DNA from: Eublepharis macularius
Taxonomy: Eukaryota; Chordata; Lepidosauria; Squamata; Eublepharidae
Direction of reading: 5' to 3'
Length of the DNA: 64,000 nucleotides
NCBI RefSeq assembly: GCF_028583425.1
Contig: NC_072790.1
Span: 14,552,552 to 14,616,551, forward strand
The position numbers and the translations under genes were made by a program. The notes below the pieces were generated by a model, which was given only the letters and a program-made list of their open reading frames with translations, was not told the DNA's origin and did no database searches. Below, one piece after another: positions 9,270 through 39,900 of the stretch (its first letter is position 1; each line of letters starts with the position of its first letter).

Positions 9270-9395
9270 ATCTTCAGGATCTCGGGCAGGGGGGGGCAGT
9301 TCACATCACTTTCTGGAGATGGCGGGGATTGAACCGGGGATTTTCTGCACACTAGGCAGATGCTCTACCACTGCGCCACAGCCTCCTCCATGGCT
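9270..9395 (-). repeat. tRNA-derived SINE
   Basis: On the minus strand the head reads GGCTGTGGCGCAGTGGTAGA (A box) with GGTTCAATCC (B box), then a non-tRNA body. The continuous body and lack of acceptor-stem pairing argue for a SINE and not a tRNA gene. Confidence 0.75.
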
Positions 9396-20883: not shown

Positions 20884-21357
20884 AATAAAAACATTATATT
20901 ATCGAAGGCTTTCATGGACGGAGAACATTAGTTGTTGTAGATTTTCTGGGCTGTATGGCCGTGGTCTTGGCATTGTAGTTCCTGACATTTCGCTAAACCT
21001 CTGAAGATGCCAGTCACAGCTGCTGGCGAAATGTCAGGAACTACAATGCCAAGACCATGGCCATACAGCCTGGAAAATCTACCAATAATGATATAGAGTG
21101 TAGTGTCCTTGGGGTTTCTGTACCTTAGGGGGGTTCTATAGAATATTCTGTACAGGAATTTTTTGTCTGCATTAGACATATGAGTGTATGGATTGATATT
21201 GTTATTGCACTGTTTGCACAATTTATTGGAATACACCTTTTCATGAATTTTTCTAATGTGAGTTGAGAGGCAGTATATTTATTGTTGTACGATATCTGGG
21301 TGGTCTACACACTGTTTATTTCTACTGCTTGCTGGATATTGAGCCTGTTTTTCGTTG
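20884..21357 (-). mobile_element. Penelope-like element fragment with inverted ends
   Basis: It begins with the complement of the GTGAAAGCCTTCGA tail seen at 35300. Two inverted copies of the CCTGACATTTCGC block follow, one of which (20985-21035) is a complete hammerhead-like core on the + strand. The minus-strand frame 20928-21236 (YSNKLCKQCNNNINPYTH) is of unknown role. It is joined abruptly at 21358 to Helitron sequence. Confidence 0.55.
20990..21050 (+). ncRNA. Hammerhead ribozyme-like motif, Penelope copy 1
   Basis: CTGAAGA at 21001-21007, a stem II GCCAG/CTGGC, GAAA at 21028-21031, then TGTC with the predicted cleavage after C21035. The 15.2-16.2 pair is T:G here and weaker than in the 35.2-kb copy. 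Confidence 0.55.
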
Positions 21358-23784
21358 ATTTCCTGTGTGGCTGGCAGGCTCCTGCCTGCTTGCACCCCCT
21401 CTCTCTGATTGGTCAGCTGTGGAACTCTGTGTTCTGAGGTAAAAATCAGGTCAAGGAGACTGCAGACAGTTGTAGAAAGATGGTGCAAGGCTCCTGAATA
21501 GGGATTTTATATAAAAGTCAGTATGGCAACTGAGTTTTTAAACATTCATGGGAAGATGGTGCATGAACTTTCTAGGGGCCATTTTGATGCAAACCTCTCA
21601 TATGAACCTGCCAAAGTGCCCACCACACCACATCTCAGGATCTCTTTTAACACTCATGTTCTTAACCAGAGTTACGCCATGTGTAAAATTGTAGTTGTTA
21701 AGCTTTTTTTCCCTCCAGGTCCAGATGTTGTTTTGGCTGCGTTTTCCATGGGAGAGAATACTTCTTATCTGTCTCTTCAGCCGAAGACCTTGACAACCCG
21801 AGCCTTCCCACGTCCACGTTCTCAACATACAGAACTGTGGGGGGAGGCTGGGAACGAGGGGTTTGATGTATTGCCAGTTTCGTTTTGTATCTCATTCTCA
21901 ACAATGCCTATGTTCAGTCAAGATCCTTTTTAGGCCTTGGAATATGGATACTTGTATCAGAGCCTAGTCTTTCAATAAACCTTTTGAAACCAAGAAACTT
22001 GTGCTTCTTGCAGAAGGGGGAGATGAACTCTAGATAACGGGGATTCCATAGTCTGACACCTCAGTCCAACTCCACGTCACACCTCTCGCAGCCATCACCT
22101 CTTACTGCCCCCAAGAAGCCTCCTGGCAGACATCATGCAAGATACACCGATGCTAAAAGGAGGAAGCAACTTAGAGATGCAGCAAAGAAATATGCACATC
22201 CTACTCCTGTGGTGCACCGAGCAGCAGTGGCCAAGTACCAGCAAGATCACTCCGAGGTGCACAGAGTGGCAGAGTCTCTCTACTAGCAAAGCAATCCTGG
22301 AAGGCGAGTAGAGAGGCACTCACTTCCATGGAAGGTCAAGGCTCACTCAGGCATGGCCTATGATCCTTCGCTACCTTCAAGCTGCCTCTTAACCTCATCC
22401 ATGCAGAAACATCCCTGTTCAGCATCTCAAAACAAAGCAACACGGCCCAAGTGCTGTGGAACTGTAAGCTCATTGTTTGGGGTGAAAGCACCATGGCGCA
22501 CAATGGGTGTTTTGAGGCACTGAGCATAACCCTCAAAGATGTCAGGGGCAATAAGAGACTGTTGGGAGGAGTCACCGTGCAGCTAGCTGGAGACTTCTGG
22601 CAGACTCTGCCAGTAGTGCCAAGGGGAACTCAAGCTGACGAGGTTACCAAGTGTGTCAAGGCGTTGTATCCCTCATCAGGAAACTCTAAGAAAGAACATG
22701 AGGGTCCACTTGAGAGGTGAGGTGTCCGCTGGGGAATTCTCTGAACTCCTACTCAAAATAGGGGACGGAGAGTATCCCGAGTCCAAGGGAAAGGTGAACA
22801 TCCCTGCAGACATGGGCACAGTAGTGATGACCCTAGCAGACCTAACAGCCACGATATACCCTGATATCGTCACTATCATGGAGAAGTCCACAGACTGGCT
22901 GTGCAAGTGTGCCATTCTGACCCCCAAGGATGACAAGGCTGCCATCATTAAACACAACTTAACTCCCTCGAACAGGCAGAAATGGAGTACAGATCTGTGG
23001 ACTCAGTGGAGCAAATGGATGATGTGGTCTACTACCCTGTGGAGTTCCTCAACACGCTCAACACTCCTGGCTTCCCAGCCCACAAGCTTCTCTTCAAAGT
23101 GGGGGCTCCAGTGATGATGCTCCAGAACCTCAGCCCACCCAAACTCTGCAGTGGCACCAGACTGTGAGTGAAAGCCCTCCACAGGAACGACATTGAGGCC
23201 ACATTGTTCACCAGCACTGCTTGGAGGGAGTCGGTGTTAATACCATGCATACCACTCATACCATCAGATAACCTCTTTGAGTTCAAGAGACTGCAGTTCC
23301 CCCTCAAGGTCTGCCAAGTCCCAGGGGCAGACACTGAAGGTGGCAGGAATTGACTTGAGGGGGGACTGCTTCTCACAGGGGCAGTTCTACGTGGCCTGCT
23401 TCAAAGTGAGCTCACCCAGCAGCCTGGTGATCGTAGCACCTGAGGCGAAAACCACCAATGTGTTCTATAAAGAGGTCCTTCAGTAGGAAAAAAACAGTTG
23501 TATGTATTTTTCACTTTATTTATTGCACTACAATCTTTTCCTTCTAAAAATCTCTTCAATAAATGTTACATTTCAAAATTCACTTCATCAGTTTTCAGCG
23601 TCAACACACTTCGCTGTATTCAAACACCTTTGTGAGGCTTGGGTACTATGCTATTACACTACAAAACCAACTCAAAAACAAAAGCCCACAAACCCACAAA
23701 CCAAAAAAATGTTACATACCCATAAATATTATAACTGGATTTAAACGAGTTAAATACCGTAGCGAAGCACAGGCATCAAGCTAG
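21358..23784 (+). mobile_element. Helitron, 5'-truncated, with decayed Rep/helicase gene
   Basis: Shared 5'-region sequence starts at CCTGTGTGGCTGGCAGGCTC. The coding part (22440-23488) is PIF1-like helicase in broken frames. The 3' end has CCGTAGCGAAGCACAGGCAT and CTAG at 23781-23784 followed by T, the Helitron terminus. The 5' TC end is lost at the junction with the Penelope-like fragment. Confidence 0.88.
22440..23488 (+). pseudogene. Helitron PIF1-like helicase, C-terminal part, broken
   Basis: In a functional Helitron this is the 5'-to-3' helicase half of the RepHel protein, used in rolling-circle transposition. Visible pieces are LLGGVTVQLAGDFWQTLPVV with PRG (helicase motif II region, with Asp of GDF), LLKIGDGEYPE, DWLCKCAILTPKDD, then [28 protein letters not shown] and [20 protein letters not shown]. 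The end is [20 protein letters not shown] with YVAC and APEAKTTNVFYKE. Frames change at about 22700, 22960 and 23170 and an in-frame TGA follows GTRL. No Rep domain with its HUH motif is visible. Confidence 0.85.
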
Positions 23785-25569: not shown

Positions 25570-26033
25570 TTGCAATTGCAATGGCTTGCAGGGAACTCAT
25601 TGAAATTCATAAGCATAAGCACAACTTCAACAGGAAAGAAGAGACTTTAAGAATGAATAGAGCTTGGTTTCCAGTCCTGAAAAACACCAGGTTAACAAAA
25701 TACTCTACATCTTACAATAGCCCTGCAGAGAAGATTAGCATATCAAGCACCAATCCATATGCAAAAGAACCTCCTCAGGATACAGTGAAGCATTAGCACT
25801 CCATTAGCATTCCACACCCTGGGAAACCCTTACAGGATGACACAACCCAACCCACCTTTCTGAGTAGATATAAATCACCTGCTAACATCTTCTCCACAGT
25901 TTGACATAGAGATTTCTGTCTTTCAATGCTTCACCTCTGAAGATACCAGTCACAGCTGCTGGCGAAACATTAGGAACTACAATGCCAAGACTACAGCGAT
26001 ACAGCCCGGAAAATCCACAACAACCATATATTG
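25570..26033 (+). mobile_element. Penelope-like element, 3' part
   Basis: The frame 25443-25796 ends with [20 protein letters not shown] and [14 protein letters not shown], a C-terminal tail shared with the copy at 34977-35162. A decayed hammerhead-like block (25937-25973) and the CAAGACTACAGCGATACAGC terminal sequence follow. GIY-YIG-type endonuclease ancestry is inferred only. Confidence 0.6.
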
Positions 26034-28789: not shown

Positions 28790-29215
28790 TGGGGTTGCCA
28801 CCTCAAGGCTGGGAAATTCCTGGAGATTAGGGAGATGGCAGGATTTTGGGGGGGAGGGACCTCAGCAGGGTATAAAGCTGCTATGTTCTCCAGGGGGACT
28901 GAGCTCGGTCGTCTGGAGATCGCTTGTAATCCCAGGAGATCTCTAGGCCCCAACTGGAGATGGGAACCCTAAAGGGTTGTCAGCTCTCGGTTGGAAAATT
29001 CCTGGAAATTTAGGGGTAGAGCCTTACTGAGGACGATGGTGTTAAAGGAGCAGAGGGACCTCAACCGACCGCAACACCACAGAGTCCACCTTCCACCAGC
29101 CGTTTCCTCTGGGGAACTGACCACAAGCCAAGCCAATTGGACCTTCGTGGTCTCCAAGCCCTGGTGCATTTTCCTGGTGCAACAGAAGTCCCCCCAGTGG
29201 CAGTGAAGCCATTTT
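28790..29215. mobile_element. Two tandem copies of the GGTTGCCA-type MITE
   Basis: 28790-28972 runs from GGGGTTGCCACCTCAAGG to TGGGAACCCTA. The next copy follows at once from AGGGTTGTCAGCTC at 28975 to about 29215. Both share TTCCTGGA(A/G)ATT and the ACCACAGAGTCCACC-type centre. Confidence 0.7.
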
Positions 29216-29264
29216 CAAAACCATTTCCCCCAGTCAGTTAAACCACCTTTTACAATAGACAGAT

Positions 29265-30110
29265 GGGAAGATAAAGGGAACATAGGTAGGCAGATAGAGA
29301 GAGAACATAGGTAGGTAGGTAAGGTAGGGAGAGACAGAAATAGGCAGGGAGGGAGGGAGAACATAGGTAGGTAGGTAGGTAGGTAGAGAGAGAGAGAGAG
29401 AAATAGGCAGGGAGGGAGGGAGGGAGAACATAGGTAGGTAGGTGGAGAGAGGGGGGTAGGTAGGTAGGTAAGGAAGGGAGAGAGAGAGAAATAGGTAGGG
29501 AGGGAGAACATAGGTAGGTAGGTAGGTAGGTAGAGAGAGAGAAATAGGCAGGGAGGGAGGGAGGGAGGGAGAACATAGGTAGATAGGTGAAGAGAGGGGG
29601 GTAGGTAGGTAGGTAGGTAAGGAAGGGAGAGAGAGAGAGAGAAATAGGGAGGGAGGGAGAACATAGGTAGGTAGGTGGAGAGAGGGGGGTAGGTAGGTAG
29701 GTAAGGAAGGGAGAGAGAGAGAAATAGGTAGGGAGGGAGAACATAGGTAGGTAGGTAGGTAGAGAGAGAGAGAGAAATAGGCAGGGAGGGAGGGAGGGAG
29801 GGAGAACATAGGTAGATAGGTGAAGAGAGGGGGTAGGTAGGTAAGGAAGGGAGAGAGAGAGAGAGAGAGAGAAATAGGGAGGGAGGGAGAACATAGGTAG
29901 GTAGGTAGGTAGGTAGGTAGAGAGAGAGAAATAGGCAGGGAGAGAGAACATAGGTAGGTAGGTGGAGAGAGGGGGGGTGGGTAGGTAAGGAAGGGAAAGA
30001 GAGAGAGAGAGAGAGAAATAGGTAGGGAGGGAGAACATAGGTAGAAATGTAGGTAGGTTGGGGGGGGCAGAGAGATAGGGGGGGAGAGAGAGATAGGGAA
30101 CAAAGGCAGG
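29265..30110. repeat. GGTA/GAGA/GGGA compound minisatellite upstream of CNRIP1
   Basis: About 850 bp are built from GGTA, GAGA and GGGA tracts in recurring blocks marked by AGAACATAGG. The marker recurs roughly every 57-89 bp, at least ten times. The + strand is almost free of C and contains many runs of four GGG triplets separated by single A, for example near 29413-29428. Long open frames on the minus strand (Ser/Leu/Pro/Thr/Tyr-rich) are translations of the repeat and not genes. Confidence 0.95.
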
Positions 30111-30119
30111 CAGGCAGCT

Positions 30120-30930
30120 CCTTGCACCCGCAAGCAGACCGCGGGCGTCAGGCTCGACGCTCCTTCTTCCCTCCGCCGCGGCTGGCGTTGGGCGTCGGCT
30201 CCTCCCCGTCGGCGGGGACTCCGGCCGTAGGATTAGCGCAGGACGCGGGCTGCGCGCCTCGCCCTCCCCTCCTCCCTTCCTCCTCCCTCCCCGGCAGGCG
30301 GCTCGGGGCCGCGGCGTCACCTCCGCCGGGCTCGGCTGGCGCGCCCCCGGGTCGGCGTCGTCCGTGCGCCCGCCCGCCCGCCCGCCCGGCCTCGCCTCGC
30401 CCTTCTCGGCGCCTGGCCGCGATGGCCAACCCGGCGGTGCCCAGCCTGGTGCGGCTGAGCGTGGCGCTGAAGATCCAGCCCAACGACGGGCCGGTCTTCT
30501 TCAAGGTGGACGGGCAGCGCTTCGGGCAGAACCGGACCATCAAGCTGCTCACGGGCGCCAAGTACAAGGTCGAGGTGGTGCTGCGCCCGGGGCTCGTCCA
30601 GGCCGCGTAAGTGCGCCTCCCTCCCTCCCTTCTCTTCCCTTCCGAGATTGGTTTTCCCGGCGGCTCGGGGCTTCCATCTTCTTTCTCCGCCCGTGCGCGC
30701 GCAGGTCGCTGGCTGGAGGATTCCCACGACGCGGGTCTCCCGGACCCGACGCGCCCTGCTCGGCCAGAGACCCCCTTCGCCCTTGCCAGGTCTTGCCCCG
30801 TTTAGCCTTTGCCGGGGAACGGCGAGCACCTTGGCGGGGACCGCCGCTCTCGGCCCCCGGGCTTACTCGCGAGTAAAGGCGAGGCGGCCAAAAAGGCCAA
30901 AGGCCGGGCGGCCTGGGGTCGGCAGAGGAC
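30120..30930. promoter_or_regulatory. CNRIP1: CpG island promoter of CNRIP1
   Basis: This is the only long stretch of dense CpG and very high G+C next to a gene start in the window. It includes a run of CGCCC repeats near 30367-30390 that would act as GC-box (Sp/KLF-type) sites. I see no TATA box in the expected place, consistent with a CpG-island promoter. The transcription start cannot be fixed from sequence alone and probably lies between about 30150 and 30400. Confidence 0.75.
30422..30606 (+). CDS. CNRIP1: CNRIP1 coding exon 1
   Basis: It encodes residues 1-61 plus two bases of codon 62. The donor reads GCC GC|GTAAGT, so the reading would stop at once if unspliced (TAA at 30608). The exon is very GC-rich because it lies in the CpG island. 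The first 8 residues are unlike the conserved core that starts at [11 protein letters not shown]. Confidence 0.95.
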
Positions 30931-33900
30931 TTTGCTTTCCTGCAGTCCAACCGTGCAATCCTAAACAGGGTTGCTCTAGTCTCAGCCTTTTGAAATCAGT
31001 GGGCTTAGACTGGGGTATCTCTGTTTAGGATTGCGCTGCCAAATGCCTCCGCAGCACTGGATGGACTTAGGCCCCTCAGGCTGTGGTCCGGTGTACACTT
31101 ACCTGAGAGTAAGCTCCATATAAATATGAGTAGCCCTTGCTTCTGAGTAGTCTGGCATGTCTGTCTTGGCATCACCAGCTCCAGGAAGAGCTCTTGGTTA
31201 TGTAACTGGTCTGTCTCTGCTTCCTTTTAGATGGCCATCATGTTTTTCCTTTGGAAGGGCGTCCGTGTCTTTTTCGCTCTGCCTTATTTTAACCCAAACT
31301 CAACATTTCCTTTCAGCACTGCTGATACTTCTCCCTTCTCTCTGCCCCCCCCTATATTTATTTAGGGATGCCCCCCTAACTATAACAGCAAGGGCTGGGG
31401 CACCCCAGTGCTTTGTATGGCATGAGCTTTCTTACTGTGGGACAAGAGAGCCTACACTCAGATGCAGAAAAAAGGAAACCAGCTGCCCTTTCAAAAATAA
31501 GGCCCCTTTCGTTTCAGAGCTGCACCTGTCCAGCGCAGCAAAAAATAACAGAGATTTTGTGGCACCTCCAAGAGTAACACAATTTTTAATCCAGCCCTAG
31601 ATCTTGTAGACTGGAGGGCTTTCCACAAGGCTGTGAAATGATTACCCTGGTATAAAAATAGTCTCTAAGACAGCCATACACCCCCCCCCCAAACATATTT
31701 CCAGCTAACCTAGAAAAATGGATTTGATGTTAGCAAAAACGATTTGGCTGCAGAATTTTTTCTTCCCGGAGTGGGTCTTCAAGGTGGCCGGAGGCACAGT
31801 CGTGGAATAGACAAAACTCGTTCTGGTTTAGTTCTTAAATTGAGGGTGACTGAATAGAACGCTTTCTTCTCTCTGGAACAGAAACATGAAGCTGCCCTGC
31901 TGAATCATGTCCTTGTGTGACTGAGATCAGGATTGTCTGCCTGAATGGGTAGCAGCTCTCCAGGGACTCAAGTAGAGGTTTTCAGTAGGGGGAAAGTTTG
32001 CCAGTTTGGAGTCCCCCTTCTCTCCTTGTCTGAATCATAAATCAAGGCTTCAAACTTGGTGATCATAGAATTAAAGGTTTATTTTTCAATAAGCCTCATG
32101 CAGTCGTTTAAGTAACTGATGCACAAAGGAAAGCATCGGCACCTGTATTTTATACCTTGCAGTTAACGCAGAAAATTTTTTATACAACTCGTAAGATTTC
32201 TAAACAAACAGTTCTTACATCCAGTCGAGGTATGTGATCTCCAGAGCATGCTGGACTGGCAGGTCATAGCCAGCATTTGAAAGGAATACAATAATAAAAA
32301 GTCCAGTAGCACCGTTAAGATTAACCAGCTTTATTGTAGCATAAGCTTTTGAGAACCACAGCTCTCTTTGTCAGATGCATCTGATAATGCATCTGATGAT
32401 GCATCTGACAAAGAGACCTGTGGTTCATGAAAGCTGACGATGCATCTGACGAAGAGAGCTGTGGTTCTTGAAACGCGACAGAGGGCAATCTAAACTCCCC
32501 TCTATCTGGAGATCAGGGGGTGGGGCCACCGGCCATGTGACCATTTTTGCCAAGAGCGATTTAAACTTTAAAAAATTAACCCCTTGTTCCAGCTGACCCA
32601 GAGTAACGTCATTGTGCGGTCCTGAGTTCCACCGCTGAGTTCTACCACCGCTTTTCCCAGAAAAAAAGCCCTGCTTACAAGTATTAGTGGAGGGGAGTTC
32701 CAATGGCTGGTATGGCATTAGCTTGAATTGGAAGAGGAGTTGGCATGGGAGGGTGAAACTGAGACTCTTTCTTCCCTGCTACATATTTATCTGCAAAGCG
32801 AGAAGGCCTGTTTCAACTGAAAAGGCGCATTATCAGTTGCTGGCAGATTGACTTTGGATCCCATCTCAGCCGTCCTGCATGTCCTGTCAGCCAGTTCAGA
32901 AACGCAGTGGGGAGCTGTGTTGGGGCTGCTTTCTATTTCCTAAAATGCACCCACAAATAGCCAGGGAAGGACTGAAAAGTGTTTCAAGTGGCATGTGTGA
33001 ATTTGGCCTTTACAAGTAGTGTTTGCCAACCCTGGAGTTCCTCAGGGCATTGTCAGCAGTTGTGGGAGCAATCTCTCTATATAAAGACAAGTGTCCTGAC
33101 TGACTCATCAACGCCCAGCCCAAACTCCTGGACCTAGAAACATGAAATTTGGGGAGAACATTCTTTTTCATGATGTAAACACCCACTAAGAAGAGATTTT
33201 AAGAAATTCGACCCTTAAGGGTAAAATGTGTTTTCCCAAAGGGATACAGCTTCCTTGTGTGGCTGGCAGGCTGCTGCGTGCTTGCGCACGCCCCCCCCCC
33301 TCCGCTAACTGCCAGTTCGGCCACTCTTCCCTGATTGGGCCAGCCTTTCAGGATCATTTGCATATGTGGGCTGATTGGGGCTCACAATGTTCCACACCTC
33401 ATCTCACCCCCCCCCCTCCAGAGACAGTTGGAACACAGAGGTCATTTGCGTATGTGGCCTGATTGGTCCTCACCTCCCACATTCTGAACAGTATGCAGTT
33501 GTTATTGAGTGTCATTGAATGTGTCCTGAGGTAAAATGCACCTCCCAGTCTTCCCCTAAAAGTTCACTGGGACCGCCAGTCTCCCTGTGCGGCCTGGTTT
33601 TCCTGTGTGGCTGGCAGGCTCCTGCCTGCTTGCACTCCACTCTCTCTGATTGGTCAACTGTGGAACTCTGTGTTCTGAGGTAAAAATCAGGTAACGAACA
33701 CTGCAGACAGTTGTAGAAAGATGGTACAAGGCTCCTGAATAGGGATTTTATATAAAAGTCAGTATGGCAACTGAGTTTTTAAACATTCATGGGGAGATGG
33801 TGCATGAACTTTCTAGGGGCCAATTCAATGCGAGCCTCTCACATGAACCTTCCAAAGTGCCCATCACACCACCCCTCCCTTAGTCCAACTCAACCTCACA

Positions 33901-36900
33901 CGACTCGCAGCCATCACCTCTTACTGCCCCCAAGAAGCCTCCTGGCAGAAATCATGCAAAGCTGCCATCATTAGTGAAACGCTACTTAACTCCCTCGAAG
34001 GGGCACAAATGGAGTACAGATCTGTGGACTCAGTGGAGCAAATGGATGATGTGGTCTACTACCCTGTGGAGTTCCTCAACACGCTCAACACTCCTGGCTT
34101 CCCAGCCCACAAGCTTCTCTTCAAAGTGGGGGCTCCAGTGATGCTGCTCCGAAACCTCAACCCACCCAAACTCTGCAATGGCACCAGACTGCAAGTCAAA
34201 GCCCTCCACAGGAACGTCGAGGCCACATTGTTCACTGGCAGTACTCAGTGTGTGTGTCTGTGTTGGTGTTCATACCATGCATACCACTCATACCATCAGA
34301 TAACCTCTTCGAGTTCAAGAGACTGCAGTTCCCCCTCAAGGCCTGCTTTGCTATGATGATCAACATGTCCCAGGGGCAGACACTGAAGGTGGCAGGAATT
34401 GACTTGAGGGAGGACTGCTTCTCACAGGGGCAGTTCTACGTGGCCTTCTCCAGAGTGAGTTCACCCAGCAGCCTGGTGATCCTAGCACCTGAGGGGAAAA
34501 CCACCAATGTGTTCTACAGAGAAAAAAACCCTGGTTGTACATATTTTTCACTTTATTTATTGCACTACAATCTTTTCCTTCTAAAAATCTCTTCAATAAA
34601 TGTTACATTTCAAAATTCACTTCCTTGGTTTTCAGCATCAACATGCTTCGCTTTATTAAAACACCTTTGTGATGCTTGGGTACTATGCTATTATACTACA
34701 AAACCAACTTTAAAAAAAATCTCACAAACCAAAAAATGTTAGATGGTTGTTGTGGGTTTACCGGGCTGTATGGCCATGGTCTTGGCATTGTAGTTCCTGA
34801 CGTTTCGCCAGCAGCTGTGGCTGGCATCTTCAGAGGTGTAGCACCAAAAGATAGAGATCTCTCAGTGTCACAGTGTGGAAAAGATGTGGCAGGTCATTTA
34901 TATCTACTCAGGAGGGGTGGGGTTGAGCTGAGTCATCCTGTAAGAGTTTCCCCGGGTGTGGAATGCTAATGGAATGCTAATGCTTCACTGTATCCTGAGG
35001 AGGTTCTTTTGCATATGGATTGGTGCTTGATGTGCTAATCTTCTCTGCAGGGCTATTGTCGAGTATAGAGTGTTTTGTTAGCCTGGTGTTTTTCAGAACT
35101 GGAAACCATGCTCTGTTCATTCTTAAGGTTTCTTCTTTCCTGTTGAAGTTTTGCTTCCACACTGTGACACTGAGAGATCTCTGTCTTTTGGTGCTACACC
35201 TCTGAAGATGCCAGCCACAGCTGCTGGCGAAACGTCAGGAACTACAATGCCAAGACCACGGCAATACAGCCCGGTAAACCCACAACAACCATCGTTCTCC
35301 GGCCGTGAAAGCCTTCGACAATACATCAAAAAATGTTACATACCCGTAAGTATTAAAACTGGATTTAAGGTAGTTAAATACCGTAATGAAGCATGAGTAT
35401 CAAGCTAGTCATGGAATAAATCAAAAATTTTGAAACGTCACAAAAAAAATCCCAATATACAAGCCCATTTTCTGGGCAAGGAGCAGGGGTCACTGTGTGT
35501 GTGGGGGGGAGGGGGTAGTTTTGAATTTCCTGCATTGTACAGGGGGTTGGACTAGATGACCCTGGAGGTCCCGTCCAACCCTATGATTCTAAATATCACA
35601 CAGGAAATAAACCTTATGTTGACTTTGGATGTGAACTTTATTTTGATTTGATATCTGGGAAAAAAATTAGACAATACAAAAGAGAAAAATTGCTTTACTT
35701 TTTTTCTTACGATGTAAGCTGACTAGCAGCTCTATACAAATCAACGTTCTTGACTATGATCTAGCAGAAATTGAATTGCAGTCCCCACCATCAACTTTTT
35801 CTGGCCTGGGAACGTTTTCCTAGGTAGGGGTCCCTTGGAATTTGAAGAAATAACTTAGGGACTCCTCCATGGAAAAGATTTGGGAAGCGCTGCTTGTTTC
35901 AAGTTTGCTTGAATTTCTTTCCTAGGAAAAAAAGACAAGTGGTGGAAAGAGTCTTACAGATACACACACTCTGCTTAGGGCAGGAAATTCAAACCAGTGC
36001 ATCCCTGACAAACGGGATTCGTTCCATTGTCAAACTGAATTTGCCTTTGGGATTCCTCAGAAGAGCGAGTAAAGCCAGGCTTGTCTGTTTCAGGACCATG
36101 GGAATAGGGGGTGTGACTGTGCCCCTGGAAGAGAAGTCGCGAGACACCCAGATGGTTACCTACAGCGGGATCTATGATACGGAAGGGGTGCCCCACACCA
36201 AAAGCGGGGAGAGGCAGCCAATCCAGGTCACCATGCAGGTAAGTTTGCCTCTGGGTGCGGAGTGACCGAAGGCCAGGCCCCCCGAGTTAGCAATGTTAGC
36301 CAGCCCAATTGAAACAGCTTGGTCTGTGCCGAAATCCATAGATGAGAAGTTTTCCCACACATGGGGGACAGCTTGTGTCTTTCTGTTAACCTGCTATTGA
36401 AAGCAAAGCTGCAGGAAGTATTTCAGAGTTGGTTACCCTCTACTTGGTCAGCGAGTTCATAGCTGCAGGGCTTTTTATCAGGGGGAACGTGGGAGAACGG
36501 AGTTCTGGAACCTCTTGAAAATGGTCACATGGCTGGTGGCTCCGCCCCCTGATCTCCAGACAGAGGGGAGTTGAGATTGCCCTCCGTGCCACGTGGTGCG
36601 GAGGGCAATCTCAACTCCCCTCTGTCTGGCGATCGGGGCGGGGCCACAAGCCATGTGACCATTTTCTCCAAGGGCAACCCACCCCCTCTTTCCCCAGAAA
36701 AAAAGCCCTGCATTGCTGACAAGCTGACAAGTGAAATCGATTTGCAGGGTTTCGGTGGGGAGGCGAGAATGTTTTTGAGGAACCATTGAAAAGCTATATA
36801 CTTACTGGATTCATCATCGTCATAAGCTTTATTGCATTGGCTCACAGCTTTAGCAATTAACATAACTGGATTCAGAATCCTAGGTTTTAAGAACTGATTG

Positions 36901-39900
36901 GAAGCAGGTAGGCAAGCTCAAATTTTATGCCGGAGGCTGGAATAGAGGGATAGTTTGTAGTTGCAACCGGTGAGTTGGAGGGAGTGTGTGTGTGGATGCA
37001 CAATAGGTGTTATTTCTTGGGCATTTTTTTTGTAGCAACAACAGTGTCCTCTTGTAACACCCTGTACTTTTAAGCAGCGGTAGCAGTTTGAAGCATTGGC
37101 TCAGCACCCATCTGTGCAGGTGACCTCAGCTGTACAAGAGGATAATGATGAAACAAACACTGGACTCTTCCCTTCCCCCCGCCCCAAATCTAACAGTCAG
37201 CTAAGTGGGAAAATAGCAGGGATGATGCAAGAGCGTTCCAAGGCCATTTAGGCACCTCTTCCCACCGGAGGAGAGAGGAGACACAGATAACAGTGGGAAT
37301 GAACACCTCCCCTCACATAGCTTCACACCCGCAGTTTAAGCACAGAACACTCTCCGCATTAACCATAACATATAGCATGAGTACACTTACAGCAGCAGGG
37401 TATGTGGCTGGCCCTGACAGGTGAGGGCAAGCATGACAGGTGACGGCAAGCACCTGACCATTTGCCACTGAGCTTTTTCTTGCTCCATCTCCTCCCCACA
37501 CCCTGGGCTTTGCAGCTGTCTTGCAACAGATCCACAACCCGTGTTTGGGGTCCCGAGGTCAGTCGCCCCTGCCTTGAGGCCAGACTAGATGAGCCAGAAA
37601 GGTGATGTCAGATCTCTTTGTTGCAAAGCAAGGATTGGAAGAAGAGTCCCTTTTTATGATCCAGAGGAGTTAGCCGTATTAGTCTGTAGTAGCAAAATAG
37701 TAAAGAGTCCAGTAGCACCTTTAAGACTAACCAACTTTATTGTAGCAAACTTTCGAGAATCACAGCTCTCTTCGTCAGGCGCATCGATTGTAGCATAAAC
37801 TTTCGAGAGCTGCGACTCTTGAAATCTTATGCTGCAATAAAGTTGGTTAGTCTTAAAGGTGCTATTGGACTTTTTACTATTTTCCATTGATGATGAGGGG
37901 AACGTGTGTGTGTGTGTGGGTGGGGGGGGGACCAAATTGGCAACCTGTGTTTGGGTAAGGGGAAGAAAATGCCTGATGCAGTCAGTCTGGAGGAGATAAG
38001 GCAGGGAGAACTTTTGTCCAATTCATTCCAGTTCAGTAGAAATTAGACCCCTTGCTTTGTCGATGAATGAGGCACCCTTGGCTTCTCCATCGCTGCTTGG
38101 CCTTCTGGTTTGCGTCTGTTGCAGAGGAAGGCGAAGGAGACGGGGGCTGCGTTTGCTTGTGTCCGCTGCTTGTGTTTCCCCCTGCAGTTTAACTTGAGCA
38201 GGAGCCCAGCTTCTCATCTTCACAGTATTATTCTGTCAAGTGCTGTTGGATGCCTTTAGTCTGTCAGATGACTCAGTGACACTTCTGGTTCTGAGTGGGA
38301 TGGAAAGTTTCTCTTGAAGGACTTAGGCAGCCGTTGCAATATTGGAAAATCTTAATGCCTTGGGGATGAGCAAAAGTCTGTGTTTGGGAACATGACTTTG
38401 TCTAGGGGATTAACAGAACTGAAAGGAAATGAATCAGGAGAGCTGTTGCTTTTTTGAGGCGTTGCCGCTGAGTAAACTGGATGTGGCTGGGGCGCATCGG
38501 TCAAATATGAGTTGTTTCTCTTGGTCCCAGGAGTAAACGCCAAATGACATTGGTTGACACAAGTAATCTTACTCCATTTCTGTGTTAGTGGTTACAAAGA
38601 TCTAGCCCCTTCAATGTACTTCCAACGCAAATCAGGACTGGTTCTAGGGTTGCCAGCACCCAGGGCAACCCAAGTCCGGCCGCGCGCACTGCACATGCTC
38701 CCGGCACTGCATGATGACATCACTTCCATGATGTCATCAGGCACTGTGGAGCATGCCACCCCGTGTGGCAAGCCGGCTGCCCCGGTGCACCGCGGAGCTG
38801 GCGGCGACAGCGCGGGTGGCTGGGAGGCCACCTGTGCCTTTTGCTTGCCCCGCTGAGGTGGCGGCTGGCTTGCCGCAGGTGAATGGCGCGGGCAGCCTCT
38901 CAGCCACCCGCGCTGCTGCCACCAGCTCCGCAGCATGCTGGGGCAGCCGGCTTGCCGCGTGGGTGGCACACTGACAGGGCAGCAGGCTTGCTGTGCGCCC
39001 GCTGCTCTCGCAGCAGGCAAATGGCGCAGGCGGGCTCCCACTGCCCTCTGCTCAGCAGCCCACGCACTCCTGGGAGCTGGCAGCTGCACCCGCTGCCCCC
39101 TCTTTGATGGTGCCGGGGGCAGACTACCCCCCCCCCCGTCCCCCCGTCGATCCGGCCCTGATGCAAGTATGCATTTTCTCTGCAGCATTCGGTCTGTCAG
39201 TTGAGTATTATACTATACCTTGCTCACTAACGAACAAGTATTGGGAGAATTGGGAGCTTTTGACCCTAGAGCATGGCTGTTTGTGCCACCATTCTGCAAA
39301 AGTGCAGAAATCAGCACGGTAAGAAAAGCTTTTTTTTAAAGCAAGGGGTTGTATGTCCTGGAGAATGTGTAACCAGTTCCATGGAAACCTTGGAGGCAGG
39401 ATTGCTGCCTGGCAGCAGGCTTCATTGCAAACCCAAAGAGTGCTAGTTAATGGTTCCTCATCCTCTTGGAGAAGAACGACAAGTAGAGTGCCTCAGGGAT
39501 CAGTCCTGGGATCTGTTCTGTTCAACATTTTTATAAATGATTGGGATGAAGGAAAAGAGAGAATGCTTATTAAATTTGCAGATGATACTAAATTGGGAGG
39601 GGTAGCAAACATGGTAGAAGACAGAGTAAGGATACAAGATGATCTTGACAGGCTGGAAAACTGGGTTAAAACAAATAAAATGAATTTCAACAGAGATAAA
39701 TGCAACATTCTGCATTTAGGGAAGAAAAATCAAATGCATTACTAGGATGGGGGAGACCTGTCTTGGCAGTAGTATGTGCAAAAAGGATCTAGGGGTCCTA
39801 GTAGACCATACACTGAACATGAGCCAGAAGTGTGATGTGGTAGCTAAAAAGGCAAATGCGGTTTTGGGCTGTATCTACAGAAGCATAGTGTCCAGATCAC

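Follow-up and report, generated by a model that had tools for sequence, protein, structure and literature searches.

We consider it highly probable that intron 1 of CNRIP1 harbours an antisense, 5'-truncated Penelope-like element (PLE) of the Penelope/Poseidon type, built of cDNAs joined head to head and carrying hammerhead cores that would be locked in an RNA hairpin and silent. The insertion was analysed within its surroundings, hereafter called the window, i.e., the whole stretch of 64 kb of DNA. The exons of the host gene, both introns of which are bordered by GT and AG, were delineated as follows:

30422-30606 (+): CNRIP1 exon 1 (coding part), with donor GTAAGT; Pfam PF15043, E 2.8e-21
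36094-36238 (+): CNRIP1 exon 2; Pfam PF15043, E 5.2e-14
from 41657 on (+): third CNRIP1 exon piece; Pfam CNRIP1, E 9e-20

The insertion is located about 770 bp upstream of exon 2, in antisense orientation to the gene, and has the following components:

34730-34741 (no strand): left target-site duplication (TSD), CAAAAAATGTTA, an exact 12-nt match to 35327-35338
34742-35326 (-): very likely 5'-truncated PLE of 585 bp, delimited by the TSD and arm boundaries, with the ORF C-terminus on the minus strand
34742-34880 (-): direct (sense) pseudo-LTR arm and start of the next ORF, ending at ORF +86, tail absent
34977-35156 (-): C-terminal 59 aa encoded by the PLE ORF (...QDTVKH) and stop
35155-35293 (+): inverted pseudo-LTR arm, with 98% complementarity to 34742-34880
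35294-35326 (+): tail of 33 nt, present on this end only, where the element ends at ORF +119
35327-35338 (no strand): right TSD, CAAAAAATGTTA

The two arms, of 139 nt each and separated by 274 nt, differ at 3 of 139 positions (35183, 35259 and 35263), none of them inside a core, and both retain the in-frame ORF start. At the junction, the end of the ORF and the right arm share two nucleotides (AA). BLAST analyses revealed two further PLE copies in the window. Between 34743 and about 35156 the element is 88% identical to one of these sister copies (25617-26027), and the 59-aa ORF remnant is similar to that of this + strand copy at 25.6 kb. Only these C-terminal residues are left of the protein in the 34742-35326 copy, which lacks an RT or GIY-YIG domain. 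A Pfam search with the related 126-aa ORF at 25.4 kb returned no family, and the single match of a PDB sequence search with the sister copy's C-terminal PLE sequence was at chance level (E 1.2). The inverted pseudo-LTRs, the optional tail and the short TSD are those of PLEs, and it is very likely that the element belongs to them, a family name that we infer from anatomy and not from a database match. Both this identity and the location in CNRIP1 intron 1 had been proposed in an earlier note; the former is borne out by the anatomy and the latter by the two + strand exons matching PF15043. The note had set the bounds of the element at 34742-35327, of which the start is correct, whereas the 12-bp TSD places the end at 35326.

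A similar organization was described for Penelope of Adineta vaga: the pLTRs are inverted head to head, one of them may carry a 31-bp tail, and short TSDs flank several copies (9 and 10 bp in two that are described); some copies, including one with inverted pLTRs, have none (PMC3846280). The element in CNRIP1 shares with it the inverted pLTRs, the one-sided tail, the short TSD and a pLTR reaching into the ORF start, and the word 'hammerhead' is absent from the main text of that paper. Since inverted pLTRs, a tail on one end and a short TSD are all as in described PLEs, opposed cores can be regarded as an ordinary product of PLE integration. Opposed arms are a usual PLE layout, and the insertion looks like an ordinary one, with an already described arrangement.

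The closest point of comparison for its ends is PAc, a Poseidon element of Anolis carolinensis. According to the published description, PAc reverse transcription most often starts 111-118 bp into the ORF, its protein acts on both target strands by cutting and extending them, and an optional tail of 30-40 bp lies between two reverse-transcription start sites (PMC11167929). One end of our element (+119) is near the published start, and its 33-nt tail falls within the published range; for the second PAc start site, the available description gives no numeric position to set beside +86. Unlike PAc, the element at 34742-35326 is a 5'-truncated inverted pair without an intact ORF, and the likeness is drawn from description rather than from alignment. 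Its two ends would correspond to reverse-transcription starts within 120 nt of the ORF start, at +86 and +119, 33 nt apart. Each target strand would have primed one cDNA; both cDNAs would have read through the hammerhead region and been joined head to head, with AA shared at the junction, yielding inverted pseudo-LTRs with one core per strand. The insertion may be a clean example in which the two ends of a PLE look like two reverse-transcription starts, with opposed hammerheads left behind.

Instead of priming on both strands, inverted copies may alternatively arise by self-priming on an antisense template, the route favoured in PMC3846280. That the insertion is a DNA transposon with inverted repeats, non-autonomous or MITE-like, as inverted arms of 139 nt and the TSD might suggest at first sight, is most improbable in view of its unequal ends with a 33-nt tail on one only, the protein C-terminus between the arms on the minus strand, the in-frame ORF start kept in both arms, and a sister copy that has just one arm and retains somewhat more of the same ORF.

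We then turn to the hammerhead cores of this probable PLE. A pattern search of the 64-kb window confirmed what had been reported earlier, namely one core on each strand with a perfect 6-bp stem II and the positions of the two predicted cuts. The two are identical 35-nt minimal cores of sequence CTGAAGATGCCAGCCACAGCTGCTGGCGAAACGTC:

34799-34833 (-): minimal hammerhead core, PLE-sense, with a predicted cut after 34799, 26 nt beyond the ATG (A at 34827)
35202-35236 (+): minimal hammerhead core, CNRIP1-sense strand, with a predicted cut after 35236, 26 nt beyond the ATG (A at 35208)

The sense strand of the PLE is the minus strand, so it is the inverted arm that holds the + core, the one in CNRIP1 orientation. 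The conserved CUGANGA ... GAAA ... UH core is present on both strands. Stem II (GCCAGC/GCTGGC) is closed by a 7-nt loop, stem I has 3 bp (AGG/CCU), and an extra U lies between A9 and stem II in both cores. Stem III is a loopless helix of 2 bp (GAAACGTC) that cannot close in a monomer. The earlier note describes neither the extra U nor this stem III. The cores thus depart from a three-stem hammerhead, stem III being loopless and stem I improbable when folded. They conform to the minimal hammerheads of PLEs, with helix III missing, a location in a pseudo-LTR at the ORF start, and a cut 26 bp past the ATG.

Such motifs were described in PLE pseudo-LTRs as minimal type I hammerheads from which helix III is usually missing (Cervera and De la Pena 2014 and Lunse et al. 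2017, as cited in PMC6155905, PMC7761336, PMC7229834 and PMC10085705), and the missing helix III and the pseudo-LTR location are shared by the cores analysed here. They reportedly lie in tandem and possibly self-cleave when dimeric, their role and activity in vivo being called unknown (PMC7761336, PMC6155905). Unlike these tandem hammerheads, the insertion in CNRIP1 has one core per strand and no internal cis dimer. The PAc ORF begins with stem II, its ATG follows C3 and G8, and the predicted cleavage site is 26 bp beyond that codon (PMC11167929). By that published description, an ATG where stem II begins, C3 and G8 ahead of it and the 26-nt cut distance are common to both systems; only stems I and II are named for PAc, and stem III is loopless here. 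The cores would then be copies of a minimal hammerhead that belongs to the element and overlaps the ORF start codon, and in the living element they may act in tandem copies or with the PLE protein bound.

With a loose core pattern, the only two matches in the window were the two cores. Such matches by themselves mean little, because a shuffled window is expected to contain 0.55 of them, and at least two occurred in 8 of 100 shuffles. We therefore also used a stricter descriptor, combining CTGANGA, a stem II of 4-6 bp, GAAA and an adjacent loopless stem III, which matched four times in the window and in none of 300 first-order Markov sequences. Three of the four matches are in PLE copies, namely the two cores and 21001-21035 (+) in another copy; the fourth is at 37747-37778 (-). 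The two cores count as one event, because a single template gave rise to both arms. No match resulted from a pattern that assumed a 6-nt loop, since the actual loop has 7 nt, and a motif scan of viral_contigs gave none. The hammerhead-like sequence at 37747-37778 (-), CTGACGA...GAAAGTTT, has a 5-bp stem II including a G-T pair and lies in no recognised element; it is perhaps a chance match, even though 0 of 300 Markov sequences gave any.

A covariance-model match, whose absence the earlier note had named as a result that would refute its hammerheads, was found on neither strand: the Rfam hammerhead models had no match at the gathering score in the 64-kb window, none up to E 10 in 851 nt spanning both arms, and none up to E 10 in a search of 101 nt from the right arm. 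These models may perform poorly on variants without stem III. Two other Rfam matches on the right arm, Hovlinc (E 2) and Sphinx_2 (E 3.3), were set aside as far under their gathering scores.

Folding predictions indicate how the cores would behave in RNA. On either strand, a near-perfect 139-nt complement precedes the core on the same RNA. In the whole-element RNA, each core pairs base for base with the opposite arm (predicted MFE of -370.5 kcal/mol on the + strand), the probability of stem II is 0.0, and forcing the hammerhead, with stems I and II formed and the core open, costs 78.4 kcal/mol on either strand. To mimic transcription, a series of 3' ends was folded: seven on the + strand (35229 to 35326), six on the - strand (34805 to 34700) and three shorter + ends without stem II; the stem II probability was 0.0 at all 13 ends containing it. 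When the arm was folded alone, stem II formed with a probability of 0.91-0.995 per pair and stem I with 0.01-0.02, and the hammerhead fold lay 3.1 kcal/mol above the best fold (3.6 to 6.5 kcal/mol in shorter pieces). Thermodynamic folding of this kind leaves out kinetics, proteins and tertiary contacts.

We also considered dimers. A cis dimer needs a second core in direct orientation, which is absent from the insertion with its one core per strand; the next + core (21001) is 14 kb away, upstream of CNRIP1 exon 1. For a trans dimer of arms, forcing the interaction via stem III gave -49.7 kcal/mol, and -37.7 kcal/mol with stem I as well, compared with -49.4 kcal/mol for two separate monomers and -55.9 kcal/mol for the free dimer. 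As the stem III-forced dimer (-49.7) is no worse than the monomers (-49.4), a trans dimer is allowed on energy, and the folded dimers are not decisive. In the lone inverted pair, both cores would be locked in the 139-bp RNA hairpin and hence silent.

The hairpin itself might matter to the host. Given two inverted arms of near-perfect complementarity, 274 nt from each other within a single intron, and the low predicted MFE of the + strand RNA, it is conceivable, if rather unlikely, that an intronic double-stranded RNA of about 139 bp, and not a ribozyme, is noticed by the host through RNA editing or small RNAs. This reading can hold together with that of a silent PLE.

In PAc, the best studied close relative, the hammerhead RNA remains uncut unless the PLE protein is present (PMC11167929). 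We regard as very doubtful a scheme in which a PLE protein binds intronic arms bearing the ORF start and activates their hammerheads in trans, host pre-mRNAs being cut, while in copies like the present one the inverted arm would serve as an off-switch. If true, scattered PLE copies would cut host pre-mRNAs in cells with active PLE protein. The insertion makes one point testable, namely whether the ribozyme is kept silent by an inverted arm of its own transcript when the PLE protein is present.

The earlier note had further suggested that the + core could cut the CNRIP1 pre-mRNA, for which we found no support. Cleavage after 35236 in normal cells, reducing expression or altering splicing, is extremely unlikely. 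The conserved core bases do lie on the gene's own strand, intronic hammerheads are known in RECK and CTCL (PMC6155905) and an intronic self-cleaving ribozyme in Cpeb3, and a PLE hammerhead reportedly self-cleaved without protein at 3-25 mM magnesium in earlier work of the PAc authors (PMC11167929). Against these stand the loopless stem III, the antisense arm upstream on the same RNA, the 0.0 probability of stem II in the whole-element RNA and the low probability of stem I even in the arm alone, the unmatched Rfam hammerhead models, and PAc, whose hammerhead is inactive without its protein and at whose cut site no reads begin or end in the public RNA-seq sets that its authors examined (PMC11167929). 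The predicted folds suggest that neither core would cut CNRIP1 RNA; cutting is unlikely because the core is buried in a long hairpin, 78 kcal/mol below the forced hammerhead. A hammerhead match in an intron thus need not imply a cut pre-mRNA.

The sister copies of the PLE in CNRIP1 differ in their organization. The second copy (25579-26026, +) is 5'-truncated, with a single arm and a slightly longer ORF piece than the 34742-35326 copy; it ends at about +84/+85 of the ORF and is bounded by a 13-bp TSD, TATATTGCAATTG. Its core is decayed, with ATG changed to ATA and GTC to ATT. In the third copy, at about 20894-21091, two arms are fused head to head with no ORF body between them. It harbours a complete core on the + strand at 21001-21035 (a GAAATGTC variant) and a remnant core on the minus strand. 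Its BLAST matches stop at +116 and +71, the latter extending by eye to about +85; its ends are degraded, and a search for its TSD found none.

Several other features were observed around CNRIP1. A Pif1-type helicase remnant at 33847-34530 (+), with a match to Pfam Pif1_2B_dom (E 9.4e-19) in 33847-34356, is probably a Helitron; a piece at 22617-23114 (+) is presumably a Pif1-type helicase remnant as well. Adjoining and overlapping CNRIP1 exon 1, at 29215-30500 (-), long open frames run across a repetitive stretch of LPTYVLPPSLFLSLSLP-like units. A weak Rfam tRNA match at 9314-9385 (-), with 30.9 bits for a gathering score of 29, is possibly a SINE. Past CNRIP1 exon 2, at 36517-36666, nested inverted repeats with 51-nt arms without a gap and 32-nt outer arms resemble a small palindromic transposon.
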